From Azospirillaceae bacterium (lineage in GTDB: Bacteria > Pseudomonadota > Alphaproteobacteria > Azospirillales > Azospirillaceae), in NCBI GenBank assembly GCA_028283825.1, contig JAPWJW010000001.1, positions 1,116,001 to 1,180,000 of the forward strand: a stretch of 64,000 nucleotides of DNA, written 5' to 3'. The position numbers and the translations under genes are program-made. The notes under the pieces are model-generated. The model was not told the origin of the DNA. It ran no database searches and saw only the letters and a list, made by a program, of their open reading frames with translations. Shown in pieces: positions 35,939 to 55,755 of the stretch. Each line of letters opens with the position of its first letter. The first letter of the stretch is position 1.

Positions 35939-37282
35939 TCATTCCGCCGCCTGGGCCGCGTTCCGGGCGGCGGTGTACCGGTTTTCTGGCACGGGCAGGC
36001 CCAGATGGCCGCGCAGGGTGGTCGCGGTGTAGTCGGTGCGGAACAAACCGCGCGCCTGCAGGATGGGCACCACCCGCTCCACGAACAAATCGAAGGCGCC
36101 GGGCTTGGAGACGTGGATGTTGAAGCCGTCCGCCGCCCGGCCCAGGAACCAGCGTTCGATCTCATCCGCCACCGTCTCCGCCGTGCCGACGAAGCCGGAC
36201 CGCCAGCGGCCGAAGCGCCAGGCGGCCTGGCGCAGGGTCAGCCCTTCGTCGCGCGCCACCTGGATGATGCGCTCCGCATGGCCTTTGTAGCCGTTCAGGC
36301 TGACATGGCTGAGGTCGGGGAAGGGGGCGTCCAGCTCATACTGGCGGAAGTCGTGATAGTTGAAGGGCCGGCCCAGCTGGACCAGCAGCTTGTCCAGGTC
36401 CAGTTGCCCCTCCGCCTCTTTCGCCAGGCGCTGGGCCTCCGCCACCGTGTCGGCGATGGTGATGGTCAGGCCGGGGAAGACGAAGATCTGGTCGGGGTCG
36501 CGGCCCAATGCTGCCGCCCGCGCCTTCAGGTCGGCGTAGTAGGCCTGCGCCGTCTCGAAATCCTCGGCACTGGCGAAGGTGGCATCGGCGATGCGGGCGC
36601 CCAGGTCGCGGCCGGTGCCGGAATCGCCGGCCTGGAAGATGACTGGGTGGCCCTGCGGCGACCGGGTCAGGGCCAGCGGCCCCGCCACGGAATAGAAGCG
36701 GCCCTTGTGGTTCAGCGCGTGCTGGCGGGACTTGTCCAGGAAGACACCGCCGGCCTTGTCGCGGGGGAAGGCGTCATCCTCGTAACTGTCCCACAGGCCG
36801 CGCACCACCTCCACGAACTCTGCGGCGCGCTGATAGCGTTCGCCATGGTCCAGATGGTGGTCGCGGCCGTAATTGCGGGCGGCCCCCTCCAGCCCGGTGG
36901 TCACCACGTTCCAGCCGGCGCGGCCCCGGCTGATGGTGTCCAGCGAGGCGAACTGGCGGGCGACGTTGTACGGCTCCCAATACGACGTGGTCAGCGTGCC
37001 CACCAGCCCGATGCGGCTGGTGGAGACGGCCAGCGCCGACAGCAGGGTCAGCGGTTCCAGCCGGTTCAGGAAGTGTGGTGCGCTTTCCGGCGTGATGTAG
37101 GGGCTGTCGACGATGAACACCAGGTCGAACTTGGCTGCCTCCGCCTTGCGGGCGTTCTCGACGTACCAGTCGATGTTGACGCTGGCGTCGCCGGGCAGGG
37201 CCGGATCGCGCCAATTGTCGTGGTCGGTGCCGACGCCGGCCAGGATGGCGCCCAGGCGCAACTGGCGTTTGGTCTCAGCCAT
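35939..37282 (-). CDS. Flavin-dependent monooxygenase of the NtaA/SnaA/DszA family
   Basis: A 447-residue luciferase-like (LLM class) enzyme that uses reduced FMN and O2. Family signatures include LRLGAILAGVGTDHDNWRDP, YVENARKAEAAKFDLVFI, SRGRAGWNVVTTGLEGAARN and HPVIFQAGDSGTGRDLGARI. Homologues oxidise nitrilotriacetate/EDTA, sulfones such as dibenzothiophene sulfone, or alkyl C-S and C-N bonds, so attack on a C-N or C-S bond is likely. ATG 37282 has a GAGGGG site about 9 bases upstream. It is divergent from an AraC regulator that probably controls it; no flavin reductase gene is adjacent. Confidence 0.9.
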   Translation of the reverse strand: MAETKRQLRLGAILAGVGTDHDNWRDPALPGDASVNIDWYVENARKAEAAKFDLVFIVDSPYITPESAPHFLNRLEPLTLLSALAVSTSRIGLVGTLTTSYWEPYNVARQFASLDTISRGRAGWNVVTTGLEGAARNYGRDHHLDHGERYQRAAEFVEVVRGLWDSYEDDAFPRDKAGGVFLDKSRQHALNHKGRFYSVAGPLALTRSPQGHPVIFQAGDSGTGRDLGARIADATFASAEDFETAQAYYADLKARAAALGRDPDQIFVFPGLTITIADTVAEAQRLAKEAEGQLDLDKLLVQLGRPFNYHDFRQYELDAPFPDLSHVSLNGYKGHAERIIQVARDEGLTLRQAAWRFGRWRSGFVGTAETVADEIERWFLGRAADGFNIHVSKPGAFDLFVERVVPILQARGLFRTDYTATTLRGHLGLPVPENRYTAARNAAQAAE

Positions 37283-37539
37283 GGTCTCAATCCCCTCGAA
37301 TTTCAGCGCGCCGGATGTGCCGGGCCGTCGGGGTCCAGGCTGGCCGGCGGCGCGTCCGCAATCCAATTCGAAGTTCTGAAGAGGCTGTTTGGCCCCGCGC
37401 ATGAATTGGCCATGCGCACGATGGCTGGCCCAAATGATTTTGATTCTTAACGGTATGGTTGTTGCGCTTATCACGGTAGTCATGGGCCGCCGGCTAAGGT
37501 GGCCTGTCGCCTGGCAATCTGGGGGGCGCGAGGGTTCCG

Positions 37540-38589
37540 ATGACAGCATGGCACGTGATCACCGATCAGTTCCCTGTCGAGCAACGCCGTGACGTGTGGC
37601 GGGGCGCGCTGGAAAAACTGAAGCTTCCGCTGGACCATCTGCCGGAAGATGACGATTTCTTTGCGAAATTATTCTGCCTCAAGTCTCCCTTGGGCATAGA
37701 ATTCGCCCGCATCACGTCGTCGCCGCAAGAAATCTCCGGGCGATTGATGCAGAAGCTGGACGCGGTCTGGTTGATCGTCCTGATCGAGGGCAGCGCCACC
37801 CTGACCCATCCCGGCGGCACGCTGGAGTTGGGGCCCCAGGACATCATTTATGGACAGACCGGCATCCCGGCATCGCTGTCCTTCAGCACCAAGTTTCAGC
37901 TACTTTATTGTTTAATTCCAAAGTCGGCCGTCAATCCCCGGTTGATCACGCCGCTGTCCTTCGGCGTTCTGCATTTGCCGGGGCGGTCAGGAATTGGGCA
38001 TGTGCTTTCGGGAATGCTCAAGGCTTTGGCAGAAACATTCGGCACCCTGACCGAGGGGCCGTTGCGGCCCATCGACATGGCGCTGTCGGAATTCCTGATG
38101 ACCGCCCTGGCCGACAATCCGGCGGTGCAGACGGCGCGGGGGGCGGCGGGTATCCGCTCCATGGCCTTGCAGCGCATCTGCCAGATCATCGAGACGCGGC
38201 TGACCGATCCGGACCTGACCTTGGAGGACGTGGCCAACGAATACGGCGGCTCCGCCCGATACCTGCAGAAGCTGTTCAAGGAGGTCGACCAGACCTTCAG
38301 CGGTTATGTCCGCAACCGCCGGCTGGAACGCTGCCGCCACGATCTGATCAACCCCACCTTCGCGCACCTGGGCATTTCCCAGATCTGCTTCCGCTGGGGC
38401 TTCAACGAGGCCGCGCACTTCAGCCGCGCCTTCCGCGACCGCTACGGCACCACGCCGCGCGCCTATCGTCAATCGGCCGGCGTGATGGATACCCATCTGG
38501 CGGACAACGATGGCGAGGGCGCGGATTTCATGACACCCGCCGGCGCCTTGGCCGCCGACCCGGTCGATGCCTTGCAGTTCGCGGAATAA
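37540..38589 (+). CDS. AraC-family transcriptional regulator
   Basis: A 349-residue regulator. The N-terminal half (to about residue 200) is a cupin-like sensor domain of the AraC_binding_2 type (ISGRLMQKLDAVWLIVLIEG, LELGPQDIIYGQTGIP). The C-terminal half carries two helix-turn-helix motifs (LTLEDVANEYGGSARYLQKL and LGISQICFRWGFNEAAHFSR) and the ending RDRYGTTPRAYR. It is divergent from the monooxygenase and close to the SDR and Rieske genes, so it is a candidate activator of the catabolic island. GAGGG precedes the ATG by about 6 bases. Repeat copy B follows the stop. Confidence 0.92.
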   Translation: MTAWHVITDQFPVEQRRDVWRGALEKLKLPLDHLPEDDDFFAKLFCLKSPLGIEFARITSSPQEISGRLMQKLDAVWLIVLIEGSATLTHPGGTLELGPQDIIYGQTGIPASLSFSTKFQLLYCLIPKSAVNPRLITPLSFGVLHLPGRSGIGHVLSGMLKALAETFGTLTEGPLRPIDMALSEFLMTALADNPAVQTARGAAGIRSMALQRICQIIETRLTDPDLTLEDVANEYGGSARYLQKLFKEVDQTFSGYVRNRRLERCRHDLINPTFAHLGISQICFRWGFNEAAHFSRAFRDRYGTTPRAYRQSAGVMDTHLADNDGEGADFMTPAGALAADPVDALQFAE

Positions 38590-38591
38590 GG

Positions 38592-38729
38592 CCAGACCGG
38601 CGGCATGAGGTTCAACCTCATGCCGCCGTAGGACGCGACCGCGTCCGCCGGAAGTTTCCGGGGAGCGGAGCGGACTGGAAACTGAGGATCAGCCAAGCCG
38701 GCGGATGCCGGCGCCCGGCGTCTGAGGGG
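38592..38729 (+). repeat. Dispersed structured intergenic element, copy B
   Basis: Begins a few bases after the AraC stop and ends 12 bases before the stop of the convergent SDR gene. Stem 1 38599-38612 with 38614-38627 (innermost pairs unlikely to form); stem 2 38631-38636 with 38641-38646; stem 3 38653-38659 with 38677-38683; stem 4 38697-38702 with 38707-38712, loop GGAT. The tail is TCTGAGGGG. There is no T-run, so it is not an ordinary terminator. Confidence 0.88.
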
Positions 38730-38741
38730 ATATTCAAATAA

Positions 38742-39494: not shown

Positions 39495-39556
39495 GGGGTG
39501 CTCTCCCAGTGAAATGAAGGGGAGTGCACAGCCTTTAGTGCCGTGAATGTCGGCAT

Positions 39557-39691: not shown

Positions 39692-40645
39692 CTACAGGTC
39701 CAGCACCAGCATCCCGCCGCGGCTGCGGGAACAGCAGGGGGTGAACAGCCGGTTGGCCGCATGCTCAGCATCGGTCAGAACACAGTCGCGATGTTCCGGC
39801 GTGCCGTCCAGCACGCCGGTGATGCAGGCGCCGCACACCCCCTCGGCACAGGAAATGGGCAGTTCCACGTTGGCGGCGGCCAGGGCCTCGGCCGCCGTCT
39901 GGTCGGCCGCCACCGGGATGACGGCACCGGTGGAGCGCAGGCGCAGCAGGAAGGGTTGGTTGGCCTCGACTGAGGCGGCCGGGTCGGCGGCGAAGCGCTC
40001 CAGGTGGATATGGCCGGCGGGCCAGCCCAGCCCTTCGGCCGTGGCGACGGCGGCGTCCAGCAGTGCTGCGGGGCCGCAGAGATAGAGATGGCGCCCCGGG
40101 GCTGGCGGGCCGATCAGGGCGCCCAAGTCGGGCCGCCCGGTCTCCCCCGTCACGTGCAGATGCAGGCGGCCCGATCCCACCGCCCGGGTGGAGGCGTCCA
40201 GCAGGGCGGCGCGTGTCCGATCGCGCACCAGGTAATGCAGGGTGGTGGCGCCCCCGCATCCCAGATGGGATGCCATGGACAGCAGCGGCGTGATGCCGAT
40301 GCCGCCGGCCAGCATGACGTGGTCGGTGCCGCCCTCGGCCACGGTGAACAGGGCGCGGGGCGGGCGGATGCGCACGGTATCGCCGGCATGGATGCTGTCG
40401 CACAGGGCCTTGGACCCGCCCCGGCCGTCCGCTTCCCGCTGCACGGCGATGCGGTAGTGCCCCCGGTCGGCCGGTGTGCCGTACAGTGAGTACTGGCGCG
40501 TCAGGTCGCCGACCTGGATGTCGATGTGGGCGCCGGGTTGGAAGGCGGGCAGGGGCCGGCCCTCCACGTCGCTGAGCGCGAACAGGAAGATGCCGTCACC
40601 ATCCTGTTCCTTGGTGGCCACCCGCGCCTCAAACCAATCCTCCAT
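39692..40645 (-). CDS. Oxygenase reductase, phthalate dioxygenase reductase type (FMN, NADH, 2Fe-2S)
   Basis: A 317-residue electron-transfer protein in the order FMN-NAD-ferredoxin. The flavin motif is RQYSLYG, the NAD domain has HVMLAGGIGITPLLSMASHL and LYLCGPAALLDA, and the C-terminal 2Fe-2S ferredoxin has CAEGVCGACITG with the fourth Cys in EHRDC. This class passes electrons from NADH to Rieske oxygenases, and the Rieske alpha subunit is encoded two genes upstream on the same strand. ATG 40645 avoids overlap with the extradiol dioxygenase gene; an ATG at 40678 would overlap it. Confidence 0.92.
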   Translation of the reverse strand: MEDWFEARVATKEQDGDGIFLFALSDVEGRPLPAFQPGAHIDIQVGDLTRQYSLYGTPADRGHYRIAVQREADGRGGSKALCDSIHAGDTVRIRPPRALFTVAEGGTDHVMLAGGIGITPLLSMASHLGCGGATTLHYLVRDRTRAALLDASTRAVGSGRLHLHVTGETGRPDLGALIGPPAPGRHLYLCGPAALLDAAVATAEGLGWPAGHIHLERFAADPAASVEANQPFLLRLRSTGAVIPVAADQTAAEALAAANVELPISCAEGVCGACITGVLDGTPEHRDCVLTDAEHAANRLFTPCCSRSRGGMLVLDL

Positions 40646-40658
40646 GGCGCCCACCCCG

Positions 40659-41456
40659 TCAGGCCGCCAGATCGCCAAAGGCGATCGTCAGCATGCTGAG
40701 GGAACCGTGCTCCACCCGGTCATTGACCAGGGTGACGGCATCGTCCGGCTGGCGGGTGCCCAGCACGTACAGCAGCGGCAGGTAATGGTCGGGCGAGGGG
40801 ATGGAGGCGCGGGCGTCGTCGCCCCCCTGCTGGAAATCGATCAGCGGCTGGGGCGTATCGGCCGCCACGCAGCGCTTCACCAGGTCGTTGAAGCGCGCGG
40901 CCCAGGGATAGGGCGGCGTGGTCGGGTCCCAGTTCATGCGGCCCAGATTGTGGACCACGTTGCCGGTGCCGACGATCAGCACGCCCTCGTCCCGCAGGGC
41001 CGCCAGCCGCCGGCCGACCTCGTAATGGTGGGCGGCGGGCTTGGTGCCGTCCATGCTCAGTTGCACCACCGGGATGTCGGCCTTGGGGAAGGCCTTGACC
41101 AGTACCGACCAGGTGCCGTGGTCCAGACCCCAGTTCTGGTCCTGGATCACCGCGGCCGGCGCCACCACCGGTGCCAGCAGCTCCGCTACCCGCTGGGCCA
41201 GTTCCGGGCTGCCGGGGGCGGGGTAGCGCACATCGAACAGCGCCTGGGGAAAGGCACCGAAGTCATGGATGGTGCGGGGGGCGGTCATGGCCGTCACCGC
41301 CGTGCCCCGGGTGTACCAGTGGGCGGACACCACCAGGATGGCCTTGGGCGCGCCCAGCCGGGTGCCCATCCGGGTCCATTCACGGGTGCAGACATTATCT
41401 TCCAGGGCGTTCATGGGGCTGCCATGGCCGAAGAAGATGGTGGGCAGGCGTGTCAT
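40659..41456 (-). CDS. ygiD: Class III extradiol ring-cleavage dioxygenase, LigB/DODA (YgiD) type
   Basis: A 265-residue non-heme Fe/Zn enzyme resembling 4,5-DOPA extradiol dioxygenase. Metal and catalytic His residues lie in PTIFFGHGSPMNALE, ILVVSAHWYTRG, GLDHGTWSVL and VGTGNVVHNLGRM; SPDHYLPLLYVLG is also conserved. It would cleave a catechol-type ring next to the hydroxyl pair. It sits between the Rieske alpha subunit and the reductase genes on the same strand, so it is a good candidate for cleaving the diol made by that oxygenase. The symbol reflects the family rather than proven function. Confidence 0.88.
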   Translation of the reverse strand: MTRLPTIFFGHGSPMNALEDNVCTREWTRMGTRLGAPKAILVVSAHWYTRGTAVTAMTAPRTIHDFGAFPQALFDVRYPAPGSPELAQRVAELLAPVVAPAAVIQDQNWGLDHGTWSVLVKAFPKADIPVVQLSMDGTKPAAHHYEVGRRLAALRDEGVLIVGTGNVVHNLGRMNWDPTTPPYPWAARFNDLVKRCVAADTPQPLIDFQQGGDDARASIPSPDHYLPLLYVLGTRQPDDAVTLVNDRVEHGSLSMLTIAFGDLAA

Positions 41457-41484: not shown

Positions 41485-42675
41485 TCAGGCTTTGGCGGGC
41501 TTGATGCGGTCCCAGGTGCCCTTATAGCGGCGCACCAGCCAGTCGTTGAACTCGCGCTGCGCCTGTTCCTGCCAGGAATAGCGGCCGCGGATGGCGTGGC
41601 GGGAGCGCAGGCCGACCTGCACCAGTTCGTCCACGTGCAGATCCTGGGCGATGATGGCGGCGGTGGAATGCTTGTTCATCGCCAGCTTGTCGTCGAACAG
41701 CGGGTCGTCCAGGGCGCCCGGCGCCACCAGGTAGCCCTGGTCCATCAGATGCGTCTCCGCCCCGTCGGCGCGCAGGATCAGGTAGATGATCATGTCGCTG
41801 GTGATGACCAGCGACAGCGTGGGCGGCACGTTGACGAACAGCATGCGGTTGCGTTCGGTGTCGCCCAGCGCGGGGAACACCGGCAGGATGGCTTTCTGCG
41901 TGGGGTTGAAGCTGGCGTCGGCATGCAGCGTCCCGTTGGTGCGATAGTAGCCGGCGGTGTCCCCCGGCAGGTCGTCGGGGAAGGCCGCCAGGCGTGACGG
42001 CACGAAGTCGTGCAGCGCGCCGCCGTGCAGGCGGTTGGCGTGATAGCCGTCGTTGTTGTTCTCGAACATCACCTTCCAGTTCCAGGGGAACTTGATGTCC
42101 CGGTCCGGTGCCGGGCCGTTCAGCGTTTCCATGGAATAGGGGGCCATCACCGCCTCCAGCGCCGCCAGGCGCGGGGCCAGGGGGGCGGCGTCCATGTCAA
42201 AGTTCACGAAGACGAAGCCGTGCCAGATCTCCACCTTGAACTGCGGCAGCTTCACGTCCTTCTTGTCGAACTTGCAGGTCTTCTCCATGGCCGGCGCGCC
42301 GATCAACTGTCCGTCCAGGCCGTAGGACCAATGGTGGTAGGGGCACAGGAAGGCGCGGGTGTTGCCCTGGCCCTCCGCCACCAGCATGGCGCGGTGCTGG
42401 CACACGCTGGACATGGCACGGACCACGCCGTCGCGGCCACGCGCCACCACGACGGGTTCGTCGATGATGCTGGTGGTGAAATAGTCGCCGGTCTCCTTCA
42501 CCCAGGATTCCCGGCCCACGCACAGCCATTCGTGATTGAACAGCGCCTCTTTCTCGAACTCATAGAAATCGCGGTCGGTGTAGCACAGCGGCGGCAAGGT
42601 CTCCGCCTCGTCCACGCCCAGGGCGGAACTGTCCAGGCCCTGGAAGAATGCGTCATTCAGGAAAGAGTGCTTCAT
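41485..42675 (-). CDS. Rieske non-heme iron oxygenase, alpha subunit
   Basis: A 396-residue ring-hydroxylating oxygenase. The Rieske 2Fe-2S ligands are C92/H94 (SVCQHRAM) and C111/H114 (CPYHHWSYG); the catalytic iron ligands H212 and H217 are in ENNNDGYHANRLHGG, with the bridging D209. The C-terminal StAR-like domain is complete. No beta subunit gene is nearby, so it is likely an alpha-only (phthalate, carnitine or vanillate-like) type served by the reductase downstream. The start at 42675 gives MKHSFLND; an upstream ATG at 42696 is less likely. The substrate is unknown; an aromatic or N-heterocyclic acid is plausible. Confidence 0.93.
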   Translation of the reverse strand: MKHSFLNDAFFQGLDSSALGVDEAETLPPLCYTDRDFYEFEKEALFNHEWLCVGRESWVKETGDYFTTSIIDEPVVVARGRDGVVRAMSSVCQHRAMLVAEGQGNTRAFLCPYHHWSYGLDGQLIGAPAMEKTCKFDKKDVKLPQFKVEIWHGFVFVNFDMDAAPLAPRLAALEAVMAPYSMETLNGPAPDRDIKFPWNWKVMFENNNDGYHANRLHGGALHDFVPSRLAAFPDDLPGDTAGYYRTNGTLHADASFNPTQKAILPVFPALGDTERNRMLFVNVPPTLSLVITSDMIIYLILRADGAETHLMDQGYLVAPGALDDPLFDDKLAMNKHSTAAIIAQDLHVDELVQVGLRSRHAIRGRYSWQEQAQREFNDWLVRRYKGTWDRIKPAKA

Positions 42676-42761
42676 GGTTTGAACCCCCACGCCCATGCCC
42701 CTCGGCGTCCCGGGCTCACCCGGGCGCCATCGTCTTGGTTTCTTGTCCGGTGATCCGGCGA

Positions 42762-43838
42762 TCAGTCCTCACGCGGCGGGAAGACGCCGCGGGGGATGCG
42801 CACGTGGATGCCCTGCGTGCCGTCCACCACCTGGGTGACGCCGAAATCCGCCGCGACGCTCATCAGCGAATAGGCGTCGTCGCGGCTCAAGCTCTGCTGC
42901 TCGGTCAGCAGCTTCAGCATGTCGATCGAGGCGTTGCGCATGGCGACGTTCAGGTCCGGATCGAAGCCGTGGACGATCCAGCAATCCGGCGCCTCCAGCA
43001 GGGGCGAGGGGAACTGGAAATCCTTGCGCAGGAACACCTGGAACATGACGTTCAGCGATGCCTCGATGGCCGTGCCGCTCAGCTCCCCGTCCCCTTGCGA
43101 GACGTGGGGGTCGCCGATGGAAAACAGGGCGCCGTCCACCTGGACCGGATAGTACATCGTGGCCCCGGCGCCGATGCGCCAGTTGTCGATGTTGCCGCCG
43201 TGCAGGCCGGGCGGAATGGTGCTGATGCGGCCCGTCACGTCGGGCGCCACGCCGGCGGTGCCCAGGTGCGGGCGCACCGGCACCCGCACGCCGGCCAGCG
43301 CCGGCTGGCGGTCGCATTCCGGGCAGTTGGTGATCTTGCCCGGCACGTCGTACAGGCCGGGGAAGTCGTAGGCGTAGAGCGCGTGGGCCTGCTGGCTCAT
43401 GGCGTCCAGCTCATAGATGGTCACCCGCTCCTTCCCCATCTCCTTGTACAGATGGCCCCAGTTGGCCGCCAGGTTGGAGCCATAGCGGGTGCGCGGCGTC
43501 ATCTTCAGGTAGTGGACCTCCAGCATGTCGCCGGGCTTGGCGCCCTCGACGAAGATGGGCCCGGTCATGATGTGGACGCCGGGGTTGCGGTCGGCCTCGG
43601 GGATTTCCTTGAAAATCCGGGCGACCGCCTCGTCCATCATCAGGTCGGGTGCGTCGCCGGCGTGGTGGGTGATGGCCTCCGCCTGGATGATGTCCCCGCT
43701 CTTGACCGTCAGGACCGGCGCCTGGGTGGCATTGAAATAGCCCCAATGCACGGTGCGCGGCGTGGCCGGCAGCATGTGCAGCGTCGGCCTGATCTTGTGC
43801 CGTTCCGCCGCGGCGGCGCGATCCAGTTGAACGGTCAT
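42762..43838 (-). CDS. Acetamidase/formamidase family protein
   Basis: A 358-residue member of the FmdA_AmdA family, which hydrolyses formamide or short amides to the acid and ammonia. Typical segments are VHWGYFNATQAPVLTVKSGD, VHIMTGPIFVEGAKPGDMLE, ISTIPPGLHGGNIDNWRIG and LFSIGDPHVSQGDGELSGTA. Start ATG 43838 follows AAGGGGG by about 5 bases, a strong ribosome site. It is read in the same direction as the Rieske, extradiol and reductase genes, so release of formamide or an N-formyl/acyl intermediate in the same pathway is likely; this is inference from position. Confidence 0.9.
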   Translation of the reverse strand: MTVQLDRAAAAERHKIRPTLHMLPATPRTVHWGYFNATQAPVLTVKSGDIIQAEAITHHAGDAPDLMMDEAVARIFKEIPEADRNPGVHIMTGPIFVEGAKPGDMLEVHYLKMTPRTRYGSNLAANWGHLYKEMGKERVTIYELDAMSQQAHALYAYDFPGLYDVPGKITNCPECDRQPALAGVRVPVRPHLGTAGVAPDVTGRISTIPPGLHGGNIDNWRIGAGATMYYPVQVDGALFSIGDPHVSQGDGELSGTAIEASLNVMFQVFLRKDFQFPSPLLEAPDCWIVHGFDPDLNVAMRNASIDMLKLLTEQQSLSRDDAYSLMSVAADFGVTQVVDGTQGIHVRIPRGVFPPRED

Positions 43839-44081: not shown

Positions 44082-45374
44082 ATGACGACACAGGCGCTCA
44101 AGGTTTCCGATGCGGAGGCCGCGGCCATCACCCAGGCCATCGACCGGGATGAACTGGTCAAGCTGGTGCTGGACCTGTGCGGCATCCCCTCGCCCATGCG
44201 CCAGGAACGCCGGGTGGGGGAGTTCGTCTTCGACTGGATGGCGGGTAACGGTTTCGCCCCGCGCAAGGCCGGCCTGGTGGAACACCGCTTCAACGTCATC
44301 GGCAGTTATGGCGGCAAGGGCGACGGCCCCAACCTGCTGTTCACCAGCCACCTGGACACCGAAAGCCCGTTTTATGATGAGACGGACCAGTTCACCTACC
44401 GTCCGGAAACGGTGGCCGACCCGCAATGGCTGGGCGCCTGGCTGGAGGGGGAGACGTTCTTCGGCCACGCCGTGGGCAACGACCGGGGGCCTATGGCCTG
44501 TTTCCTGATGGCGGCCAAGGCCCTGCGCAAGGCCGGCATCGACCTCAGCGGCCTGATGTACCTGACGGCCTGCCCGGGGGAGATCGGGCCCGAACCGGCG
44601 GAGGACAAGGCCGGTGTCGATTATTTGGGCAAGGAACTGGGCGCCTGTTACCTGATGTCCCACGGCGGGGTGGCGCCGGATTACGTGATCTCGGCCGAGG
44701 GTACGGACTTCGGCATCAACTGGACGGCCTGCGGCTATGCCGATTTCCGCGTCACGATATACGGCCAGGGTGTGTTCACGCCCCTGCTGACCCATCCGGA
44801 GGCGCTGGCCGACCATCCCAGCCCGCTGGTCAAGGTGGCGCCGGCCATCGAGATCATCCAGCGTTGGGCGCGGGAATATGAGGTCAAGCACCGGTATGAG
44901 GGACCCGGCGGCACGGCCGTGCCCAAGGTGCAGATCGGCGCCATCCGGGGCGGCACGCCCCAGGCCATGGGTGCCGCCAGCGAGGTGTGCAACCTCTACG
45001 TCCAGGTGGCGCTGACCCCGGTGCAGACCATCGCCGCCGTGGACCGCGACCTGAAGCGCGCCTTCCGCGATGCCGGCTTCGGTGATGTGAAGATCCAGCC
45101 CTACACCGTGCGCCACGGCTTCACCGCCGACCCCACGGCGGTCAAGCCTCTGCAATCGGCCCTGGGCCATGCGCATGAGCGGGTGAAGGGCGGGCCGCAG
45201 CCCATCAGCAATCCCATCTATTCCAGCATGTGGCGCGACCATAACGTCTTCAACATGAACCGCATTCCGTCGGTGACCATGGGGCCGCGCCGCTGGCGGC
45301 CCAGCATCGACGATCTGGTGGATTGCACGCGGCTGTACGCCATGGCGGCGCTGGCCCTCTGCGGTCGCGCTTGA
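44082..45374 (+). CDS. M20-family metallohydrolase
   Basis: A 430-residue M20/ArgE-DapE-type zinc amidohydrolase. LLFTSHLDTESPF supplies the first metal His and Asp, GHAVGNDRGPMACFLMAAKA the bridging Asp, and CPGEIGPEP the catalytic Glu; VISAEGTDFGINW and DHNVFNMNRIPSVTMGP carry the later ligands. Such enzymes remove acyl or carbamoyl groups from amino acids or split dipeptides. ATG 44082 has GGGGCAGGG upstream. It is divergent from the formamidase gene and TGATG-coupled to the amidohydrolase that follows, so both probably act in sequence on amide intermediates. Confidence 0.87.
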   Translation: MTTQALKVSDAEAAAITQAIDRDELVKLVLDLCGIPSPMRQERRVGEFVFDWMAGNGFAPRKAGLVEHRFNVIGSYGGKGDGPNLLFTSHLDTESPFYDETDQFTYRPETVADPQWLGAWLEGETFFGHAVGNDRGPMACFLMAAKALRKAGIDLSGLMYLTACPGEIGPEPAEDKAGVDYLGKELGACYLMSHGGVAPDYVISAEGTDFGINWTACGYADFRVTIYGQGVFTPLLTHPEALADHPSPLVKVAPAIEIIQRWAREYEVKHRYEGPGGTAVPKVQIGAIRGGTPQAMGAASEVCNLYVQVALTPVQTIAAVDRDLKRAFRDAGFGDVKIQPYTVRHGFTADPTAVKPLQSALGHAHERVKGGPQPISNPIYSSMWRDHNVFNMNRIPSVTMGPRRWRPSIDDLVDCTRLYAMAALALCGRA

Positions 45375-46753
45375 TGACCGGCGACATCGCCCCCGATCTT
45401 CTGGTCCTGGGTGGCGACGTCGTCACCATGGACGCCCGGCGCACGGTGTGGTCCGACGGTGGTGTGGCCATCGCCGACGGCGCCATCATCGCGGTGGACA
45501 AGGCGGCAACCTTGCGCGCCCGCTGGCCTACGGCGCCGGTGCTGGATGCGGGCGAAGGCCTGATCACCCCCGGCCTGATCAACGCGCACCAGCATCTGAC
45601 GGGCGACCCGCTGGTGCGCAGCCTGATCCCGGATTTGCAGAAGTCGGAGGTGTCGATCTTCGACTGGGCGGTGCCCGTCCACGGCGCCCACAGTGCCGAT
45701 GATGATGAGCTGTCGGCCACGCTCAGCGCCGTGGAATCGCTGAAATACGGCACCACCACTTTGGTTGAGGCCGGCACCGTGGCCCATCCGTTCCGCGTGG
45801 CGGCCGGCCTGGCCAAGGCCGGCATCCGGGCAGCGGTCGGCTGCTGGGGCTGGGACATCGCGGACGCGCCCCACGCCGCCCCGGCGGATGAGGTGCTGGC
45901 CCGCCAGGCCGCCGTGCTGGACGGCCTGCCTAAAGGCGGATTGGTCGAGGGCTGGGTCACCCTGGTGGGGCATGACCTGGCCAGCGACGCCCTGCTGGCC
46001 GGGGCCGCCGATCTGGCGCGGGCGCGCGGCGTGGGTATGACCATGCACATCTCGCCCACCGAGGCGGACGTGACGGCTTATTTGCGCCGGTCAGGCCGGC
46101 GGCCCTTGCTGCATCTGGCCGATCTCGGCGTGCTGGGCCCCCACCTGCTGCTGGCCCATGCCGTCTGGCTGGACGATGCGGAGGTGGATGCGTTGCTGGC
46201 CAGCGACACGGCCGTCGCCTATTGCCCCTGGGCCTATCTGCGCCTGGCCCAGGGCGTCACGCGCGCCGGCCGCCATGCCGAGATGGTGGAACGCGGTGGC
46301 CGCGTGGCGTTGGGCTGCGACGCGCCCAACGCCGCCGACCTGCCCGACATCCACCGGGCGGCCGCGCTGGCGGCGGGCCTGGCGCGCGACATGCGGCTGG
46401 ATGAACGTTTCGGGGCCGATACGGCCTTCGGCCTGGCCACCGTCGAGGGGGCGCGGGCCATCGGCATGGCCGCCCGCATCGGTTCGCTGGAGGTGGGCAA
46501 GCGCGCCGATCTGGTGGTGCATGATCTCAAATCCGCCCCCTGGATGGTGCCGGGCGATCCGGCGCTGCACCTGGTGTGGGGCACCGATGGGCGGTCGGTG
46601 CGCGACGTGGTGGTGGACGGCCGCGTCGTGGTGCGCGATGGCCGGTGCCTGATGGTGGATGAGGATGCCCTGCGCACCCAGGCGCGCGCGGCCCGGGGCG
46701 ACCTGCTGCGGCGGGCCGGCATCACCCCGCGCAGCCGCTGGCCGGTCCGCTGA
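45374..46753 (+). CDS. Amidohydrolase of the TRZ/ATZ/guanine-deaminase type
   Basis: A 459-residue metal-dependent hydrolase of the amidohydrolase superfamily. The metal-binding HxH is in GLINAHQHLTGDP, a further His in MTMHISPTEADV and VTLVGHDLASD, and the catalytic Asp in ALGCDAPNAADLPD; IGSLEVGKRADLVVHDLKSA marks the returning beta domain. Members remove amino, chloro or alkylamino groups from s-triazines, guanine, cytosine and similar rings. The start overlaps the M20 stop (TGATG). With the RutA/RutB-like genes downstream this points to an N-heterocyclic or N-substituted substrate. Confidence 0.9.
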   Translation: MTGDIAPDLLVLGGDVVTMDARRTVWSDGGVAIADGAIIAVDKAATLRARWPTAPVLDAGEGLITPGLINAHQHLTGDPLVRSLIPDLQKSEVSIFDWAVPVHGAHSADDDELSATLSAVESLKYGTTTLVEAGTVAHPFRVAAGLAKAGIRAAVGCWGWDIADAPHAAPADEVLARQAAVLDGLPKGGLVEGWVTLVGHDLASDALLAGAADLARARGVGMTMHISPTEADVTAYLRRSGRRPLLHLADLGVLGPHLLLAHAVWLDDAEVDALLASDTAVAYCPWAYLRLAQGVTRAGRHAEMVERGGRVALGCDAPNAADLPDIHRAAALAAGLARDMRLDERFGADTAFGLATVEGARAIGMAARIGSLEVGKRADLVVHDLKSAPWMVPGDPALHLVWGTDGRSVRDVVVDGRVVVRDGRCLMVDEDALRTQARAARGDLLRRAGITPRSRWPVR

Positions 46754-46984: not shown

Positions 46985-48256
46985 ATGCGGCGAGAATGGT
47001 TGGTCCTGGCGGCGGTGTCGTTGAGCTTCTTCTTCCTCAACGCCGCGACGTTCGCCTCGCTGGGCGTGGTGCTCTACACCATGGTCGGCGAATTGCACTG
47101 GTCCTTCAAGGCGGCCGGTTTCTGCTTCTCCCTGCTGGGCATCGCCTGCGGCCTGTCCAGCGTCTTCCCCACAGCACTGATGAAGCGGTTCGGCCCGCGT
47201 GCCACGATGGTGCTGGGCGGGCTGGTGCTGGTGGCGGCCTACGCGCTGGCCTCATTCACCCATGGCCTGATGACCTTCTACGCGGCCATGCTGCTGCTGG
47301 GCCTTGGGTATTCGCTGTCCGGCAACGTGCCGGCCATCTACGCCATCGCCTGCTGGTTCCCGCGCCGGGCGCCGCGCATGATGGGCATCTACCTGATGAT
47401 CGGTGCCTTCGGCGGTGTGGTCGGCCCGCCCATGGCCCGCGCCCTGGTGTCCATCACCAGCGACTGGCGCGCCTATTGGATGGAAATGGCGGGTGTCGCC
47501 GTGGCCGTCACCCTGGTCAACCTGCTGTGCATCCGTGACAAGGCCATCGAGACGGATGAAGCGGCGGCGATGGTGGTGGACACAGGCCCCAAGCCAACCC
47601 CCGTCGCGGCCACCGGCTGGACCTACCGCACCGCCATCATGACGCCGCAGTTCCTGGCGGTGGCGGGCGCCATGACCATGAACATGGCCTGCGTCACCAC
47701 CATCAACAGCGTGGCGCTGAACCATCTGGGCATCCTGGGCGTGTCGCCGGACATGGCGGCTTTCGCCCTGGCGGCCATGGCCCTGGTCATGACCGTGGCC
47801 AAGGGTGTGGCCGGCCCCTTGTGCGAACATGTCTCCACCCGCCTGCTGCTGGTCATCGGCATGGCCTTGCAGGTGGTGGGCATCGCCCTGTTCGCGCGGG
47901 CCGGCACGCCGCTGGGCATCGGCGTCTTCGCCCTGACCTTCGGCGTCGGCTGGGGCATCGCCTACCTGGCGGCCAGCGTCCTCCTGCTGGAATATTTCGG
48001 CAAGGACATAGGGTCCCAGGTGCTGGGCATGGTCTGGACCATCACCACGGTGGCGGCCGCCGGCCCGGTGGCGGCGGGTGCCATCGCCGACCAGATGGGC
48101 ACCTTCGCGCCCATCTTCTATTTCTACGCCGTGTTGATGGTCGGCACCGTCGTGCCGCTGATGATGCTGGGGCGCCCGGTGCCGGCGGCCCGCCCTTTCG
48201 CCCGGCCGTCCGCTGAAAACGCGGACGGGGCGGCGGTTACGGTTCAGGCCGGCTAA
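46985..48256 (+). CDS. MFS transporter
   Basis: A 423-residue major facilitator with about 12 membrane helices and no long N-terminal domain. The loop between helices 2 and 3 has ALMKRFGPRATMVLGGL, a form of the MFS signature, and the central loop (about residues 185-210) is short. WFPRRAPRMMGIYLMIGAFG resembles the oxalate/formate-antiporter and monocarboxylate group. ATG 46985 is preferred, with GGGGG upstream. It lies between the amidohydrolase and the TonB receptor, so import of the island's substrate across the inner membrane is likely. Confidence 0.9.
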   Translation: MRREWLVLAAVSLSFFFLNAATFASLGVVLYTMVGELHWSFKAAGFCFSLLGIACGLSSVFPTALMKRFGPRATMVLGGLVLVAAYALASFTHGLMTFYAAMLLLGLGYSLSGNVPAIYAIACWFPRRAPRMMGIYLMIGAFGGVVGPPMARALVSITSDWRAYWMEMAGVAVAVTLVNLLCIRDKAIETDEAAAMVVDTGPKPTPVAATGWTYRTAIMTPQFLAVAGAMTMNMACVTTINSVALNHLGILGVSPDMAAFALAAMALVMTVAKGVAGPLCEHVSTRLLLVIGMALQVVGIALFARAGTPLGIGVFALTFGVGWGIAYLAASVLLLEYFGKDIGSQVLGMVWTITTVAAAGPVAAGAIADQMGTFAPIFYFYAVLMVGTVVPLMMLGRPVPAARPFARPSAENADGAAVTVQAG

Positions 48257-48295
48257 GGGCTGGCCCAACAATAAAACAGAGTTTCGGTGTCACAG

Positions 48296-48327: not shown

Positions 48328-48507
48328 TTCGTGTCATATCCGCATCACAATAAAAAATGATGGGTGGCAGGGACTTATGGGGACTTTGGGCAACGGTAAA
48401 TTCAGGCAACTTCTCGGGCGCCGTACAACAAGAATACTTTCAGTGATGCCCCCATGCTTGGTCCCAAGGCGATGGCTTTCGCCAACTACCAAGAATGGGG
48501 GTCGGGC

Positions 48508-50817
48508 ATGTTGAGAGAGTTGAAGCAGCGTTGTTTGCTGGGTGCTGCGGCGGTGGCGATGCTGGCGGGTGGGTCCGCCTACGCCCAGACCACGCAGGCG
48601 CCCGCACCGGCCAACCCCAATGACGCGCCGGTCCAGGGGCCGGCCGCCGATGAACTGGAACCCATCATCGTCACCGCCGAGAAGCGGCAGGTCGATCTTC
48701 AGCACGCCCCCATCTCGGTCACGGCCGTTTCCGCCGATACGCTGGAAAAGGGCAATGTCACCGGCCCGCTGGGCCTGAACGGCTACGTCCCCGGCCTGCA
48801 GATCAACCCCAGCGGCGGGTCGGAGGTCATGGTCTCCATCCGTGGTGTCGGTTCGCAGACGCCGGAGAATTTCTTCACCCAGCCGGGCGTGTCCTTCCAC
48901 ATCGACAACGTCTATATCCCCAACAATATCGCCCTCAACCTGGGCTTCCTGGACGTCGACCATGTCGAGGTGCTGCGCGGGCCGCAGGGCACGGTGTTCG
49001 GCCAAAGCTCCACCGGCGGCGCCATCAACGTCATCAGCAAGCAGCCGCAGCTGGGCAAGCTCAGCGGCGACGCCACCGCCACCTTCGGCAACTACAGTTA
49101 CGCCATGGGCAAGGCCGACCTGAACGTGCCCATCGGCGATACGGCCGCCATCCGCGCCGTGGTGCAGAAGACCAGCCACGACGGCTATGCCACCGCCACC
49201 GGCATTCCGGGCGGCTACGACCTGGATGACGCCAACAATGTGAACTACAAGCTGGCCGGCCTGTGGCAGCCGACCGACAATCTGTCCATCACCCTGACGG
49301 GCCAGCATTTCGAGGATGACCACCACGGCAGCGCGCTGAAGTCCATCGACGATCCCAACCCCGATCCGCGGGAGGTGACGCAGGACTTCCCGGCCAAGTT
49401 CAAGCTGTCCATGGACGTGGACACGCTGAACATCAACTACTCCCTGCCGTTCGGGAACCTGAAGTCCATCAGCAGCTATCAGTACATGGACGCCAAGCAG
49501 TCGTTCGATAGCGACCGCAGCACAGAGGCGCTGTTCGGCGGCTACGATACCGTGGCCGCCTGGAACACCAAGAGCCGCGCCATCATGGAGGAGGTGACCC
49601 TCAGCTCCAACCCGGGCACCGACCTGGATTGGATTGCCGGTGTCTTCTACATGCACTCCCACAGCAGCCAGTACGTGGTGGAATACAAGGGCACCGACAC
49701 CAGCGACCCGACGCCGGTGCTGCCCACCAGCACGTCGGCCAGCGCCATCCCGGCCAACCTCAGCTATGAGAACCTGTCGTCGGTGGACCGTGACTCGGTC
49801 GCACCTTTCCTTCAGGGGACCTACCATTTGACCGACCGCTGGCGCCTGACCGGCGGCGTCCGCTACAACGTCGATCTCTACAACGGCTGGGGCTCCGACT
49901 ATTACGGCGCGCCGTCGCCACGCACCACCCAGGTGTACGCGCTCACCGGCAAGGCCGAGACCGACTTCGACCTGACCAGCGACAACATGATCTACGCCAG
50001 CTGGTCGCGCGGCTATAAGCCGGGCGGCATCAACACCGGCACCAACAGTGCGGAGGTTGTGTCCAACACCTATTCCAAGGAAACGGTGGACAGCTTCGAG
50101 GTTGGGTCCAAGAACCGCTTCCTGAACAACCACCTGAACGTCAACGTCTCCGCCTTCTACTCCAAGTACAACAACATGCAGTACATTGAGGAGGATCCGG
50201 TGCCCTACAGCGGTGGCATCGGCAACATCCCGCAGGTGAACATGTGGGGTGCGGAGATCGAGGCCAAGTACCGTCTGCTGGACAACCGGCTGGAACTGGG
50301 CGGCAACCTGACCTTGATGGACGGGGAGATCCCCGACAGCTATCTGGCGCTGGACCGGCGCCTGGCCGATGCCGCCGCCGCCAAGGCCGTGGCCGCCGGC
50401 GTGACATATCCCTACAGCGCGCAGTGGTTCGCCATCCGCGCGGCCCAGTCCATCAACGTGAAGGGCAACACCCCGCCCGACATGCCGGGTGCCGCCGGCG
50501 GCGTCAACGCCAGCTGGCTGCAGACCCTGGGCAACTATGGCAGCCTGACCTCGCGCATCGAACTGCTGTTCCGCAGCGATTATGAGGCGCGGGTGTTCAA
50601 CGAGAGCGTGGATCACGTACCCTCATACAGCCAGATCAACCTGTTCTTCGAATATTTGCCGGAGTCCGGTCCGTGGCGTGCGACCTTCACGGTCACCAAC
50701 CTGCTGGACCGCTCGGGCATCGCCGGTCGCTACACCGACCCGTACGGCAGCGGCGTGGTCAGCAACCAGTACATCCCGCCGCGCCAGATGCTGGCCAGCG
50801 TCAGCTACTCGTTCTAA
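48508..50817 (+). CDS. TonB-dependent outer-membrane receptor
   Basis: A 769-residue receptor. The signal peptide ends in GGSAYAQ, a TonB box-like EPIIVTAEKR follows near residue 53, then the plug domain (ISVTAVSADTLEKGN, VMVSIRGVGSQ, VEVLRGPQGTVFGQSSTGGA) and a 22-strand barrel ending in aromatic Phe (ASVSYSF). Size and plug motifs match the large receptor group used by alphaproteobacteria for aromatic and plant-derived compounds rather than classical siderophore receptors, though iron chelates are not excluded. It starts an operon with the RutA-like, TauD-like and RutB-like genes, 16 bases upstream of the first. Confidence 0.94.
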   Translation: MLRELKQRCLLGAAAVAMLAGGSAYAQTTQAPAPANPNDAPVQGPAADELEPIIVTAEKRQVDLQHAPISVTAVSADTLEKGNVTGPLGLNGYVPGLQINPSGGSEVMVSIRGVGSQTPENFFTQPGVSFHIDNVYIPNNIALNLGFLDVDHVEVLRGPQGTVFGQSSTGGAINVISKQPQLGKLSGDATATFGNYSYAMGKADLNVPIGDTAAIRAVVQKTSHDGYATATGIPGGYDLDDANNVNYKLAGLWQPTDNLSITLTGQHFEDDHHGSALKSIDDPNPDPREVTQDFPAKFKLSMDVDTLNINYSLPFGNLKSISSYQYMDAKQSFDSDRSTEALFGGYDTVAAWNTKSRAIMEEVTLSSNPGTDLDWIAGVFYMHSHSSQYVVEYKGTDTSDPTPVLPTSTSASAIPANLSYENLSSVDRDSVAPFLQGTYHLTDRWRLTGGVRYNVDLYNGWGSDYYGAPSPRTTQVYALTGKAETDFDLTSDNMIYASWSRGYKPGGINTGTNSAEVVSNTYSKETVDSFEVGSKNRFLNNHLNVNVSAFYSKYNNMQYIEEDPVPYSGGIGNIPQVNMWGAEIEAKYRLLDNRLELGGNLTLMDGEIPDSYLALDRRLADAAAAKAVAAGVTYPYSAQWFAIRAAQSINVKGNTPPDMPGAAGGVNASWLQTLGNYGSLTSRIELLFRSDYEARVFNESVDHVPSYSQINLFFEYLPESGPWRATFTVTNLLDRSGIAGRYTDPYGSGVVSNQYIPPRQMLASVSYSF

Positions 50818-50833
50818 GGGGGCCTGATTTCAA

Positions 50834-51949
50834 ATGACGCAACCGAAAACGACCGAGCTGAAGCGCGCGGCCCTGCCCTCCGATACGGGGGGGAAGGATC
50901 TGGGCATCTTCCTGCCCATCGCCAACGGCGGCTGGATCCTGTCGTCCTCCGCCCCGCCCATTGATGGTTCCTACGCCTACAACCGCCAGGTGGCGCAACT
51001 GGCCGATGGTGCCGGCTATGACTTCATCATGGCGATGGCCAAGTGGCGCGGCTATGGCGGCACCACCGACCATTGGCGCTACGCCATGGAAAGCCAGATG
51101 ATGATGGCCGGCCTGGCGGAGGTGACGAAGGAGGTCAAGGTGTGGGCCACGGTCCACACCCTGCTGCAGAACCCGGCCGTGACCGCCAAGATGATCATGA
51201 CCCTGGACCACATCAGCCACGGCCGCGCCGGCCTGAACGTGGTCAACGGCTCGTTCAAGGGCGAGTTCGAGCAGATGGGCGCCTGGCGGGATGAGTTGGA
51301 CCATGACGAGCGCTACACCTTCGCCGAGGAATGGGTGCACGCCATCAAGCGGCTGTGGACCGAGGACACGGTCGATTACCAGGGCAAGTACGTGAAGCTG
51401 ACGGATTGCCAGTCCGATCCCAAGCCCTTCTCCCGCCCCTTCCTGGTCTGCGCCGGCTCCTCCAAACGGGGCATGGCCTTCACCATCAATGAGATGGACG
51501 CCATCTTCCTCTCGGGCACGACCAAGGAGGAACTCGCCAAGAACAGCGGCATGGCCAAGACCATGGCGAAGGAGGCCGGGCGCACCATCAAGACCTATTC
51601 CATGATGACCCTGCTGCCCGCCGACACGGATGCGGAGGCCGAGGCCCTGGCCGCCCAATACGTCGAGGGCTTCGACGAGGGCGCCTGGCGCGGCATGATG
51701 AAGGCCTACGGCTTCCTGGATGTGGAGATCGGGCGCCAGAACGACTTCACCACCAAGGCCCGGTCGGGCTTCATGTCCAGCCACCTGGTGGGCTCGCCCA
51801 AGACCCTGGCCGACAAGCTGATCGACATGCTGGGCGGCTGCGACCTGGACGGCATGATGCTGATCTTCCCCGACTACATCACCGGCGTGCCGCGCTTCGC
51901 CAACGAGGTGCTGCCCGCCATCCGCAAGGCCTTCCCGGGCAAGGTGTGA
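50834..51949 (+). CDS. RutA-like flavin-dependent monooxygenase (LLM class)
   Basis: A 371-residue luciferase-fold enzyme that resembles RutA, the pyrimidine oxygenase that opens the uracil ring with a flavin-peroxide. Shared features are the opening DLGIFLPIANGGWILSSSAP, FIMAMAKWRGYGGTTDHWRY, WATVHTLLQNPAVTAKMIMT, ISHGRAGLNVVNGSFKGEFE, the DCQSDPKP segment and the C-terminal GCDLDGMMLIFPDYITG. It differs enough that uracil need not be the substrate; related enzymes cleave amides or other N-heterocycles. It lies 16 bases after the TonB receptor and is followed closely by a TauD-like dioxygenase. The island has a RutB-like but no RutC-G-like gene. Confidence 0.85.
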   Translation: MTQPKTTELKRAALPSDTGGKDLGIFLPIANGGWILSSSAPPIDGSYAYNRQVAQLADGAGYDFIMAMAKWRGYGGTTDHWRYAMESQMMMAGLAEVTKEVKVWATVHTLLQNPAVTAKMIMTLDHISHGRAGLNVVNGSFKGEFEQMGAWRDELDHDERYTFAEEWVHAIKRLWTEDTVDYQGKYVKLTDCQSDPKPFSRPFLVCAGSSKRGMAFTINEMDAIFLSGTTKEELAKNSGMAKTMAKEAGRTIKTYSMMTLLPADTDAEAEALAAQYVEGFDEGAWRGMMKAYGFLDVEIGRQNDFTTKARSGFMSSHLVGSPKTLADKLIDMLGGCDLDGMMLIFPDYITGVPRFANEVLPAIRKAFPGKV

Positions 51950-51954
51950 CCGCC

Positions 51955-52785
51955 ATGGACAACGGCATCCGCGCGTATCAGAGCTTCCAGGTGAAACCCA
52001 GCGCCGTGGCGCTGGGGGCGGAACTGCTGGGGATCGACCTGTCGCAGCCGCTGACGGAGTTGCAGGTGGCGGAGGTCAAGGACGCCTTCGCCCGTTACCA
52101 GGTCATCTTCTTCCGCGACCAGGCCAAGCTGACGCATGAGGCGCACAAGGATTTCGGCCGCCATTTCGGCAAGCTGGCCATCCATTCCGCCGTGGCTGGC
52201 ATCGACGGCCATCCGGAGATCGTGGCCATCCACGCCGACGCCAATTCCAAGTATGTGGCGGGGGAGAACTGGCACAGCGACCTCAGCTGTGATGCCGAGC
52301 CGCCGCTGGGCAGCATCCTCCACATCCACACCCTGCCGCCGGTGGGGGGCGACACCTGCTTTTCCAGCATGTACGCCGCCTATGACGCGCTGTCGGACCG
52401 CATGAAGGCCTATCTGGACGGCCTGACGGCGGAGCATGACGCCAACCACGTCTACCACGCGCTGTTCAAGGACTACGACAAGCGCTACCCCTGCAACAGC
52501 CACCCGGTGGTGCGCACCCATCCGGTGACGGGGCGCAAAAGCCTGTTCGTGAACTCCTCCTACACCACCCGCATCAACGAGGTGCCGGAGGAGGAGAGCC
52601 GGGCCGTGCTGGCCATGCTGTACGACCATGTGAAGAACCCCAACTTCCAGATCCGCTTCCGGTGGGAGCCTCATTCGGTGGCGTTCTGGGATAACCGCGC
52701 CGTGCAGCACCTGGCCGTCTGGGATTATTTCCCCAACGTCCGCTCCGGCTTCCGCGTCACCGTTGCCGGGGACAAGCCCTACTGA
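51955..52785 (+). CDS. TauD/TfdA-family Fe(II)/2-oxoglutarate dioxygenase
   Basis: A 276-residue enzyme that couples oxidation of a substrate to decarboxylation of 2-oxoglutarate. The iron ligands are H and D of ENWHSDLSCD and the distal His of NRAVQHLAVWDY; the 2-oxoglutarate Arg lies in VRSGFRVTVAG. The protein resembles taurine and 2,4-D dioxygenases, which break C-S or C-O bonds by hydroxylation. ATG 51955 lies six bases after the RutA-like stop; a GTG at 51946 overlapping it is possible. It is TGATG-coupled to the RutB-like hydrolase. Insertion between RutA- and RutB-like genes is unusual. Confidence 0.92.
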   Translation: MDNGIRAYQSFQVKPSAVALGAELLGIDLSQPLTELQVAEVKDAFARYQVIFFRDQAKLTHEAHKDFGRHFGKLAIHSAVAGIDGHPEIVAIHADANSKYVAGENWHSDLSCDAEPPLGSILHIHTLPPVGGDTCFSSMYAAYDALSDRMKAYLDGLTAEHDANHVYHALFKDYDKRYPCNSHPVVRTHPVTGRKSLFVNSSYTTRINEVPEEESRAVLAMLYDHVKNPNFQIRFRWEPHSVAFWDNRAVQHLAVWDYFPNVRSGFRVTVAGDKPY

Positions 52786-53498
52786 TGCCGACAATCGCGA
52801 AAGAGGGGGCGGTCCCCGTCGAACTGACGCTGGACCCGCCGGTGCCGGCGGCGGCGCTGCCACCCATGATCGATCCCAAACGCACCGCCCTGCTGATCAT
52901 CGACCCGCAGGTGGACTTTATCGCGCCCGAGGGCGCCATCGGCCAGGCCGGGGTGGATCTGGGCGTGGTGGAGCCGACCCTGGCCCGCATCCGCCCGCTG
53001 ATCGACGCCGCCCGCGCCGCCGGCGTGCCGCCGGTCTTCATCCGTGTCATCACCCGGCCGGAGACGGATGGGACGGCGCTGAAGGCCCTGTATGAACGCC
53101 GCGGCTGGCCGGCCGAATCCCTGGCCATCTGCCGCGCCGGCACCCCCGGCGCCGGCTATTACGGCGTGGCGCCCGAACCCGGCGATATGGAGGTGGAGAA
53201 GGTCCTGTTCTCCGCCTTCGCCGGCACGGATTTCGAGGCACGGCTGAGGGAACGGGGCATCGATACCCTGGTGGTCTGCGGCTTCACCACCGAATGCTGT
53301 GTCGATTGCACCGTGCGCGACGCCTTCCATCGCGACTTCCATGTCTTCGTGGTGGCGGACGCGTGTGCCGCGTATGAGCCGGCGCTGCACCTGGGCGCGC
53401 TCTACGCCCTGTCCAAGAACTGCGCCCTGCTGGTGGAGACGGACGCGGTGGTGGGGGCCTTGAGGGCGCCGTCGTCTTCAGCCGCCGCCGTAGGCTGA
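52785..53498 (+). CDS. Isochorismatase-family cysteine hydrolase (RutB-like)
   Basis: A 237-residue hydrolase with the family triad: Asp in LLIIDPQVDF (residues 36-45), Lys in EVEKVLFSAF and Cys in CGFTTECCVDCTVRDA. Members include RutB, which hydrolyses the peroxyureidoacrylate made by RutA, N-carbamoylsarcosine amidohydrolase and nicotinamidase. The RutA-like gene two positions upstream supports a RutB-type role (cleavage of a carbamate or amide after ring opening). About 30 extra residues precede the domain. The 3' end overlaps the convergent small secreted protein gene by 21 bases. Confidence 0.88.
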   Translation: MPTIAKEGAVPVELTLDPPVPAAALPPMIDPKRTALLIIDPQVDFIAPEGAIGQAGVDLGVVEPTLARIRPLIDAARAAGVPPVFIRVITRPETDGTALKALYERRGWPAESLAICRAGTPGAGYYGVAPEPGDMEVEKVLFSAFAGTDFEARLRERGIDTLVVCGFTTECCVDCTVRDAFHRDFHVFVVADACAAYEPALHLGALYALSKNCALLVETDAVVGALRAPSSSAAAVG

Positions 53499-55749: not shown

Positions 55750-55755
55750 GGTCCG

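Follow-up and report, generated by a model that had tools for sequence, protein, structure and literature searches.

The 64,000-nucleotide stretch analysed here (the window; positions 1,116,001 to 1,180,000 of contig JAPWJW010000001.1, assembly GCA_028283825.1, from an Azospirillaceae bacterium) carries a conserved block of catabolic genes, which runs from an AraC-family regulator at 37540 to a second major facilitator superfamily (MFS) transporter ending at 60064 (Table 1). An original prediction had placed a catabolic island for a nitrogen-containing aromatic or heterocyclic compound at 35939-53498. Open reading frames (ORFs) and family searches confirmed every enzyme class it named at or near those positions, while boundaries and membership needed correction. 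Its core idea holds: the block is a real, mobile and coherent island, and its chemistry has been narrowed. The second of two luciferase-type enzymes (LLM2) and the isochorismatase-type hydrolase were found to be RutA-like and RutB-like, the hydrolase first labelled M20 to be 5-nitroanthranilate aminohydrolase-like (NaaA-like), and the extradiol dioxygenase to be of the YgiD/4,5-DOPA-dioxygenase type. The VanB-type reductase is the likely electron supply of the Rieske oxygenase, and the cog0402 enzyme is likely an aminohydrolase. Literature searches among open-licence papers gave no description of this gene set, in line with the earlier remark that no described pathway with the exact set then listed is known.

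Table 1. Genes of the island in the window, with the evidence for each assignment
Feature	Coordinates	Strand	Evidence
AraC-family regulator; left end of block	37540..38589	+	Pfam HTH_18/AraC_binding_2; 90-91% in other Nitrospirillum blocks
VanB-type ferredoxin/flavin reductase; start codon uncertain	39692..40678	-	Fer2 + FAD_binding_6; C-x4-C-x2-C motif; 73-76% in other Nitrospirillum
LigB/YgiD-type extradiol dioxygenase	40659..41456	-	NF007914 (4,5-DOPA extradiol dioxygenase) 376.9 bits, above cut-off 233; PDB YgiD 2pw6
Rieske oxygenase alpha subunit	41485..42696	-	Pfam Rieske + Ring_hydroxyl_A; C-x-H...C-x2-H and N-x2-D-x-Y-H-x4-H motifs
Acetamidase/formamidase-family (FmdA) hydrolase, distinct subfamily	42762..43838	-	PF03069
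NaaA-like M20-fold hydrolase	44082..45374	+	PDB 5k8p 289 bits; model Z 40.8
cog0402 (TRZ/ATZ-type) amidohydrolase	45374..46753	+	Amidohydro_1; top NCBIfam match 5'-deoxyadenosine deaminase, under cut-off
MFS transporter 1 (MFS1)	46985..48256	+	PF07690; found in most clusters
TonB-dependent receptor	48454..50817	+	TonB families under equivalog cut-offs; 39-46% in other clusters
LLM2, RutA-like flavin monooxygenase	50834..51949	+	TIGR03612 251 bits; RutA 5wan/6sgl top PDB matches
TauD1, Fe(II)/2-oxoglutarate dioxygenase	51946..52785	+	NF007104 267 bits, cut-off 313; 4-nt overlap with LLM2
RutB-like isochorismatase-family hydrolase	52785..53498	+	TIGR03614 90 bits; 1-nt overlap with TauD1
SDR2, short-chain dehydrogenase conserved in clusters	55813..56673	-	NF004824; 50-82% in other clusters
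TauD2, second Fe(II)/2-oxoglutarate dioxygenase; start approximate	56905..57780	-	NF007104 176 bits; 64-72% in L047, L054, L057
WrbA-like flavoprotein, member by synteny	58009..58611	+	In all island-bearing Nitrospirillum blocks; Nevskia cluster 72%
MFS transporter 2 (MFS2); right end of block	58775..60064	-	79-83% in G002, G003, G005, G006; absent from island-less G004

The window belongs to a Nitrospirillum genome, and the same block in the same order was found in five others of that genus (six with the window), at two or more chromosomal sites. In G005 the order is identical from AraC through the reductase, LigB, Rieske, FmdA, M20-type, cog0402, MFS1, TonB, LLM2, TauD1 and RutB-like genes, with the same gspDKO neighbour, and the RutB-like gene is followed by permeases/PadR, SDR2, TauD2, WrbA and MFS2. 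G001 resembles G005, with no MFS2 match in the stretch read. In G002, G003 and G006 the block has flanks other than gspDKO in the stretches read, and the permease/PadR insert is absent. Furthermore, G004, which has neither LLM2 nor a close MFS2, carries gspDKO, permeases/PadR, an aldehyde dehydrogenase and Gfo/Idh, an empty version of one site. With occurrence at different sites and an empty site, the genes form a mobile block.

These comparisons also define its extent. The block does not end at 53498, as first proposed, but runs on through SDR2, TauD2, the WrbA-like gene and the second MFS transporter to about 60064; the island is therefore taken as 37540 to about 60064 minus 38742-39494 and 53888-55803, about 16 genes. 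The short-chain dehydrogenase (SDR) conserved with the block is SDR2, not the one at 38742-39494, which had been counted as a member but lies in the block of none of the five other island-bearing Nitrospirillum genomes. The luciferase-type ORF at 35939, likewise counted, encodes an NtaA/DmoA-family monooxygenase (TIGR03860 506.7 bits, above the cut-off of 279.7), and its homologous part begins near 37282, not 37549. Its orthologs (82-85%; that in G006 split in two pieces) sit elsewhere in five other Nitrospirillum genomes, including island-less G004, and the enzyme is placed outside the island for this reason; neither it nor the 38742 SDR lies inside any of the other Nitrospirillum blocks. A role for the 35939 enzyme as a riboflavin lyase within the island was considered and dropped, its orthologs being unlinked to the block. 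The permease/PadR genes at 53888-55803 are native to the locus and outside the block. There, as at 7171-9810 of L089, permease-prefix proteins and a PadR regulator are parted from gspDKO by the island, and G004 has three such permease-like genes. The G+C content (66.3% in the island, 68.4% in the window) is not informative, and nothing convincing in the way of terminal repeats was seen in the two small regions searched.

Outside Nitrospirillum, LLM2 relatives of 49-65% identity occur in rearranged clusters in Nevskia, Altericroceibacterium, Caulobacteraceae, Novosphingobium, Kozakia, G401 and G777, which span alpha- and gammaproteobacteria. Because the same set recurs rearranged in such distant genomes, the clustering exceeds chance. 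In a class-wide sample of 385 genomes, an NaaA-like protein was found in two of the 384 others, both among the four others with LLM2 (chance 6/73536), and in a phylum-wide sample the Rieske enzyme was found in one other genome, which is one of the two with LLM2. The Kozakia cluster is self-contained on a mobilizable plasmid, where IS5-family transposases flank it. In a tree of LLM2, several forks of which are poorly supported, the gammaproteobacterial Nevskia nests among alphaproteobacteria. A minimal module of LLM2, RutB-like, NaaA-like, flavin reductase, MFS, AraC and Tsx-type channel genes exists on its own in Thalassolituus and on plasmids of Paraburkholderia and Acinetobacter. The FmdA subfamily keeps 68-79% identity across clusters; on plasmids outside clusters only one close copy was found (Paraburkholderia, 74%), the others reaching at most about 42%. 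Neighbourhood comparison had been named at the outset as the means of exposing unrelated neighbours, and most of the genes were found to travel together, the 35939 enzyme and the 38742 SDR excepted.

The nature of the chemistry is indicated by the resemblance of LLM2 and its partner to the Rut pathway of Escherichia coli (RutA, RutB, RutF). The LLM2 model superposes on RutA with a Z score of 37.5 and a root-mean-square deviation of 2.5 over 328 residues at 32% identity. Thr105, Asn134 and Val136 are kept in the LLM2 alignment, the first two in all rows; in RutA, Thr105 and Asn134 coordinate O2 and Trp139 borders the si-side substrate cavity (PMC10005588). Trp139, a tryptophan in RutA of both E. 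coli and Azospirillaceae, is Ser in Nitrospirillum LLM2 and Ser or Ala in all 16 LLM2-like alignment rows. RutA turnover requires an intact ring amide (PMC7662398). Based on the retained O2-site residues, the replaced Trp139 and this requirement, we infer that LLM2 is an amide-cleaving enzyme acting on a ring larger than uracil. In the RutB-like hydrolase, D40, K139 and C172 align with the Asp, Lys and Cys of RutB, which we take to be its catalytic triad, and a RutF-like reductase (185 bits) lies within the Kozakia cluster. Unlike the true Rut proteins, however, both enzymes score below the curated cut-offs (498.3 bits for TIGR03612, 377.95 for TIGR03614), LLM2 being 31-32% identical to RutA; the block has no recognised RutC, RutD, RutE or RutG, and its Rieske, LigB, FmdA, NaaA-like and TauD genes are additions.

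The third member of this core has NaaA of Bradyrhizobium (PDB 5k8m-5k8p) as its closest solved relative. Its model, of moderate confidence (mean predicted local distance difference test score 73.5), matches 5k8o/5k8p at Z 40.8 versus 32.9 for the next M20 protein, the aligned folds sharing 34% identity. Breakdown of a ring with amide or ring nitrogen, as originally proposed, fits this RutA-, RutB- and NaaA-like trio, and is argued from families and neighbourhoods.

Further clues to the substrate come from genes that accompany LLM2 elsewhere. Ribokinase genes occur in four clusters (Nevskia, Altericroceibacterium, Novosphingobium and Caulobacteraceae); in Nevskia the gene adjoins the Rieske oxygenase and LigB genes on the same strand, and in Altericroceibacterium it lies directly upstream of LLM2, in apparent operons, a hint that the substrate carries ribose. 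No PF01156 nucleoside hydrolase was detected in G821, G823, G824 and G401 or inside the clusters of G000, G005 and G777, the absence from G821 and G823 being weak because both are metagenome-assembled genomes (MAGs). The same search covered three of the ribokinase-cluster genomes (Nevskia, Altericroceibacterium and Caulobacteraceae, the first and last being MAGs), and no inosine-uridine nucleoside hydrolase was found in them. Since no nucleoside hydrolase was found, free ribose may stem from oxidative dealkylation, a reaction that could be carried out by TauD enzymes. A Beijerinckiaceae contig has an operon in which LLM2 and a RutB-like gene are preceded by a VanA-type Rieske gene, a molybdenum hydroxylase and a two-subunit thiamine diphosphate (ThDP) enzyme; in L041 a ThDP pair and a molybdenum hydroxylase accompany LLM2. 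These enzyme kinds recall lumichrome catabolism, which proceeds by ring opening, ureide hydrolysis, deamination, ThDP decarboxylation, molybdenum hydroxylation, Rieske and extradiol steps, and of which pathway variants are expected (PMC12746152). By this analogy, together with the ribokinase, a flavin becomes the leading candidate.

The proposal is thus that the block is a horizontally mobile island importing and dismantling an N-heterocycle with a uracil-type cyclic ureide, bigger than free uracil and probably attached to ribose or ribityl, and the case for it is judged to be evenly balanced. In the scheme, whose reactions, order and substrate are all reasoned from the observed gene content, co-travel, homology and key residues, uptake would proceed through the TonB receptor and the two MFS carriers. 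LLM2 with reduced flavin mononucleotide would cleave a ring amide oxidatively in the manner of RutA, and the RutB-like enzyme would hydrolyse the ureide so formed, yielding CO2, NH3 and an amine. Exchange of ring amino groups for oxygen would fall to the NaaA-like enzyme and, where needed, the cog0402 aminohydrolase; what remains of the ring would be opened by the Rieske oxygenase, served by its reductase, and by the LigB dioxygenase, and the FmdA-type amidase would release the last amide nitrogen. TauD1, TauD2 and SDR2 might hydroxylate or oxidise side groups, one of them possibly freeing ribose. Of the candidate substrates, a flavin is favoured (riboflavin, or lumichrome together with ribose).

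Two known routes invite comparison. The lum pathway of Nocardioides simplex (PMC12746152) likewise opens the pyrimidine ring, removes the urea nitrogen, deaminates, and then uses Rieske and extradiol steps, but it opens the ring hydrolytically with LumH and employs a cytochrome P450, a ThDP decarboxylase and a molybdenum oxidase, where the block has a RutA-like enzyme and TauD dioxygenases. The riboflavin degradation of Pseudomonas RF (Stadtman route), the genes of which were never identified and the strain of which was lost (PMC12746152), also attacks the pyrimidine ring first, as told there, and its pyrone, from catechol ring cleavage, and oxamide-type amide would suit LigB and FmdA; it differs in releasing urea. 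A bolder claim, which must be called quite doubtful, would make the island an oxidative RutA-type route by which proteobacteria break down riboflavin or lumichrome completely; it would then be the mobile, plasmid-borne equivalent of the hydrolytic lum pathway and might supply the genes missing for the Pseudomonas RF route.

Several observations weigh against the proposed scheme. SfnG ties with RutA in the LLM2 fold comparison (Z 37.4, 25% identity). No RutF-type reductase was recognised in the Nitrospirillum block, with two weak matches elsewhere in the genome. Arg289 of NaaA, the residue mutated in 5k8p, is Ala, Ser or Gly in the island family by eye in alignments, and the substrate therefore likely differs from that of NaaA and is probably not 5-nitroanthranilate. 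Gene content varies, some clusters lacking one or more of the genes. Ribokinase is absent from the Nitrospirillum block, and among the genes of that block there is no P450, two-subunit ThDP decarboxylase or molybdenum oxidase of the lum kind. The flavin assignment itself draws on neighbourhoods and chemistry. Riboswitches were considered as a pointer to a vitamin substrate, but none of the sequences covered (the window, L037, L041 and L043) gave an Rfam match at the gathering threshold.

A pteridine or purine (nucleoside) as substrate in place of a flavin is unlikely, though credible. The cog0402 enzyme would then deaminate a 2-amino-4-oxo ring, a reaction known from guanine and pterin deaminases, LLM2 and the RutB-like enzyme would open the dione, and the NaaA-like enzyme would deaminate an aminopyrazine or aminoimidazole carboxylate. 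A second cog0402 clade (53-76% mutual identity), found alongside LLM2 in seven rows from six clusters, speaks for this scheme, as do the Tsx-type nucleoside channel of the minimal modules, the ribokinase genes and the loss of Trp139, which suits any fused ring. However, no cog0402 enzyme was found in the Kozakia, G401 and G777 clusters or in the minimal modules, and it is hard to see what the LigB extradiol step and the two TauD enzymes would do on a pyrazine or imidazole. A smaller substituted pyrimidine or aromatic amine (modified uracil or uridine, thiamine pyrimidine, or a nitroanthranilate-like compound), on which the NaaA-like enzyme would act first and LLM2 then open a lactam, is improbable: the NaaA homology would suit it, and a 42-43% LLM2 relative adjoins TenA and NMT1/THI5-like or BMP-type ATP-binding cassette (ABC) transport genes in Rhizobium and Pantoea, whereas the unconserved Arg289 and the lost pocket Trp139 argue otherwise and Rieske, LigB and FmdA would be superfluous. 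That the genes are unrelated catabolic neighbours is scarcely credible, since only the 35939 monooxygenase and the 38742 SDR are truly unlinked to the rest and the remaining genes are found together again in different classes, on plasmids and at no fewer than two chromosomal sites.

Should the proposal of a larger ureide-bearing heterocycle hold, RutA-type flavin-N5 oxygenation would reach beyond free uracil to a larger ring system, joined with a metal-dependent aromatic aminohydrolase in a portable, plasmid-borne module that extends to a human-origin Acinetobacter isolate. If the substrate is a flavin, the island would supply genes for turnover of vitamin B2 and lumichrome in the rhizosphere, where lumichrome is a signal. 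Whatever the substrate proves to be, the roughly ten enzymes of the set define a pathway that can be tested directly.

The clusters show further features. In other clusters the AraC relative often appears to be joined to an FmdA domain in a single protein, as in L036 (12647-14385), L046 (10834-13140), L127 (4575-6989), L118 (5506-8098), L120 (4089-6494) and L040 (15902-18241), about 770-860 amino acids long where the ORF is complete; in L036, the only one checked with Pfam, the FmdA part scores 25 bits, just under the cut-off, and the contig end cuts the ORF. Such a fusion is perhaps a sensor derived from the pathway's own amidase. Apparent nitrite/nitrate assimilation genes lie within roughly 20 kb of the clusters of G777 (L126 5659-11170) and G401 (L127 11544-17792), hinting at a role in nitrogen supply. 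G777 also has two near-identical copies of LLM2 and the RutB-like gene about 120 kb apart (L057 and L058, at about 74.6 kb and 198 kb of G777:C1), only the first with other cluster genes nearby. The minimal module in L049 is on a plasmid of a human-origin Acinetobacter baumannii strain, amid many transposases. On a Paraburkholderia aromaticivorans plasmid (L052 17998-21545), the 74% FmdA relative stands next to a dihydropyrimidinase gene and to a second FmdA-family protein of larger size, and LLM2 is absent. In L050 and L051 a distant LLM2 relative (42-43%, with Trp139 also replaced) adjoins flavin reductase, Rid-family and BMP-type ABC transport genes, and TenA too in Rhizobium; this is perhaps another RutA-like pathway. 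Finally, tryptophan 2,3-dioxygenase and kynureninase-like genes, recognised by eye, lie near an LLM2 relative in a Bradyrhizobiaceae MAG (L043 449-3580).

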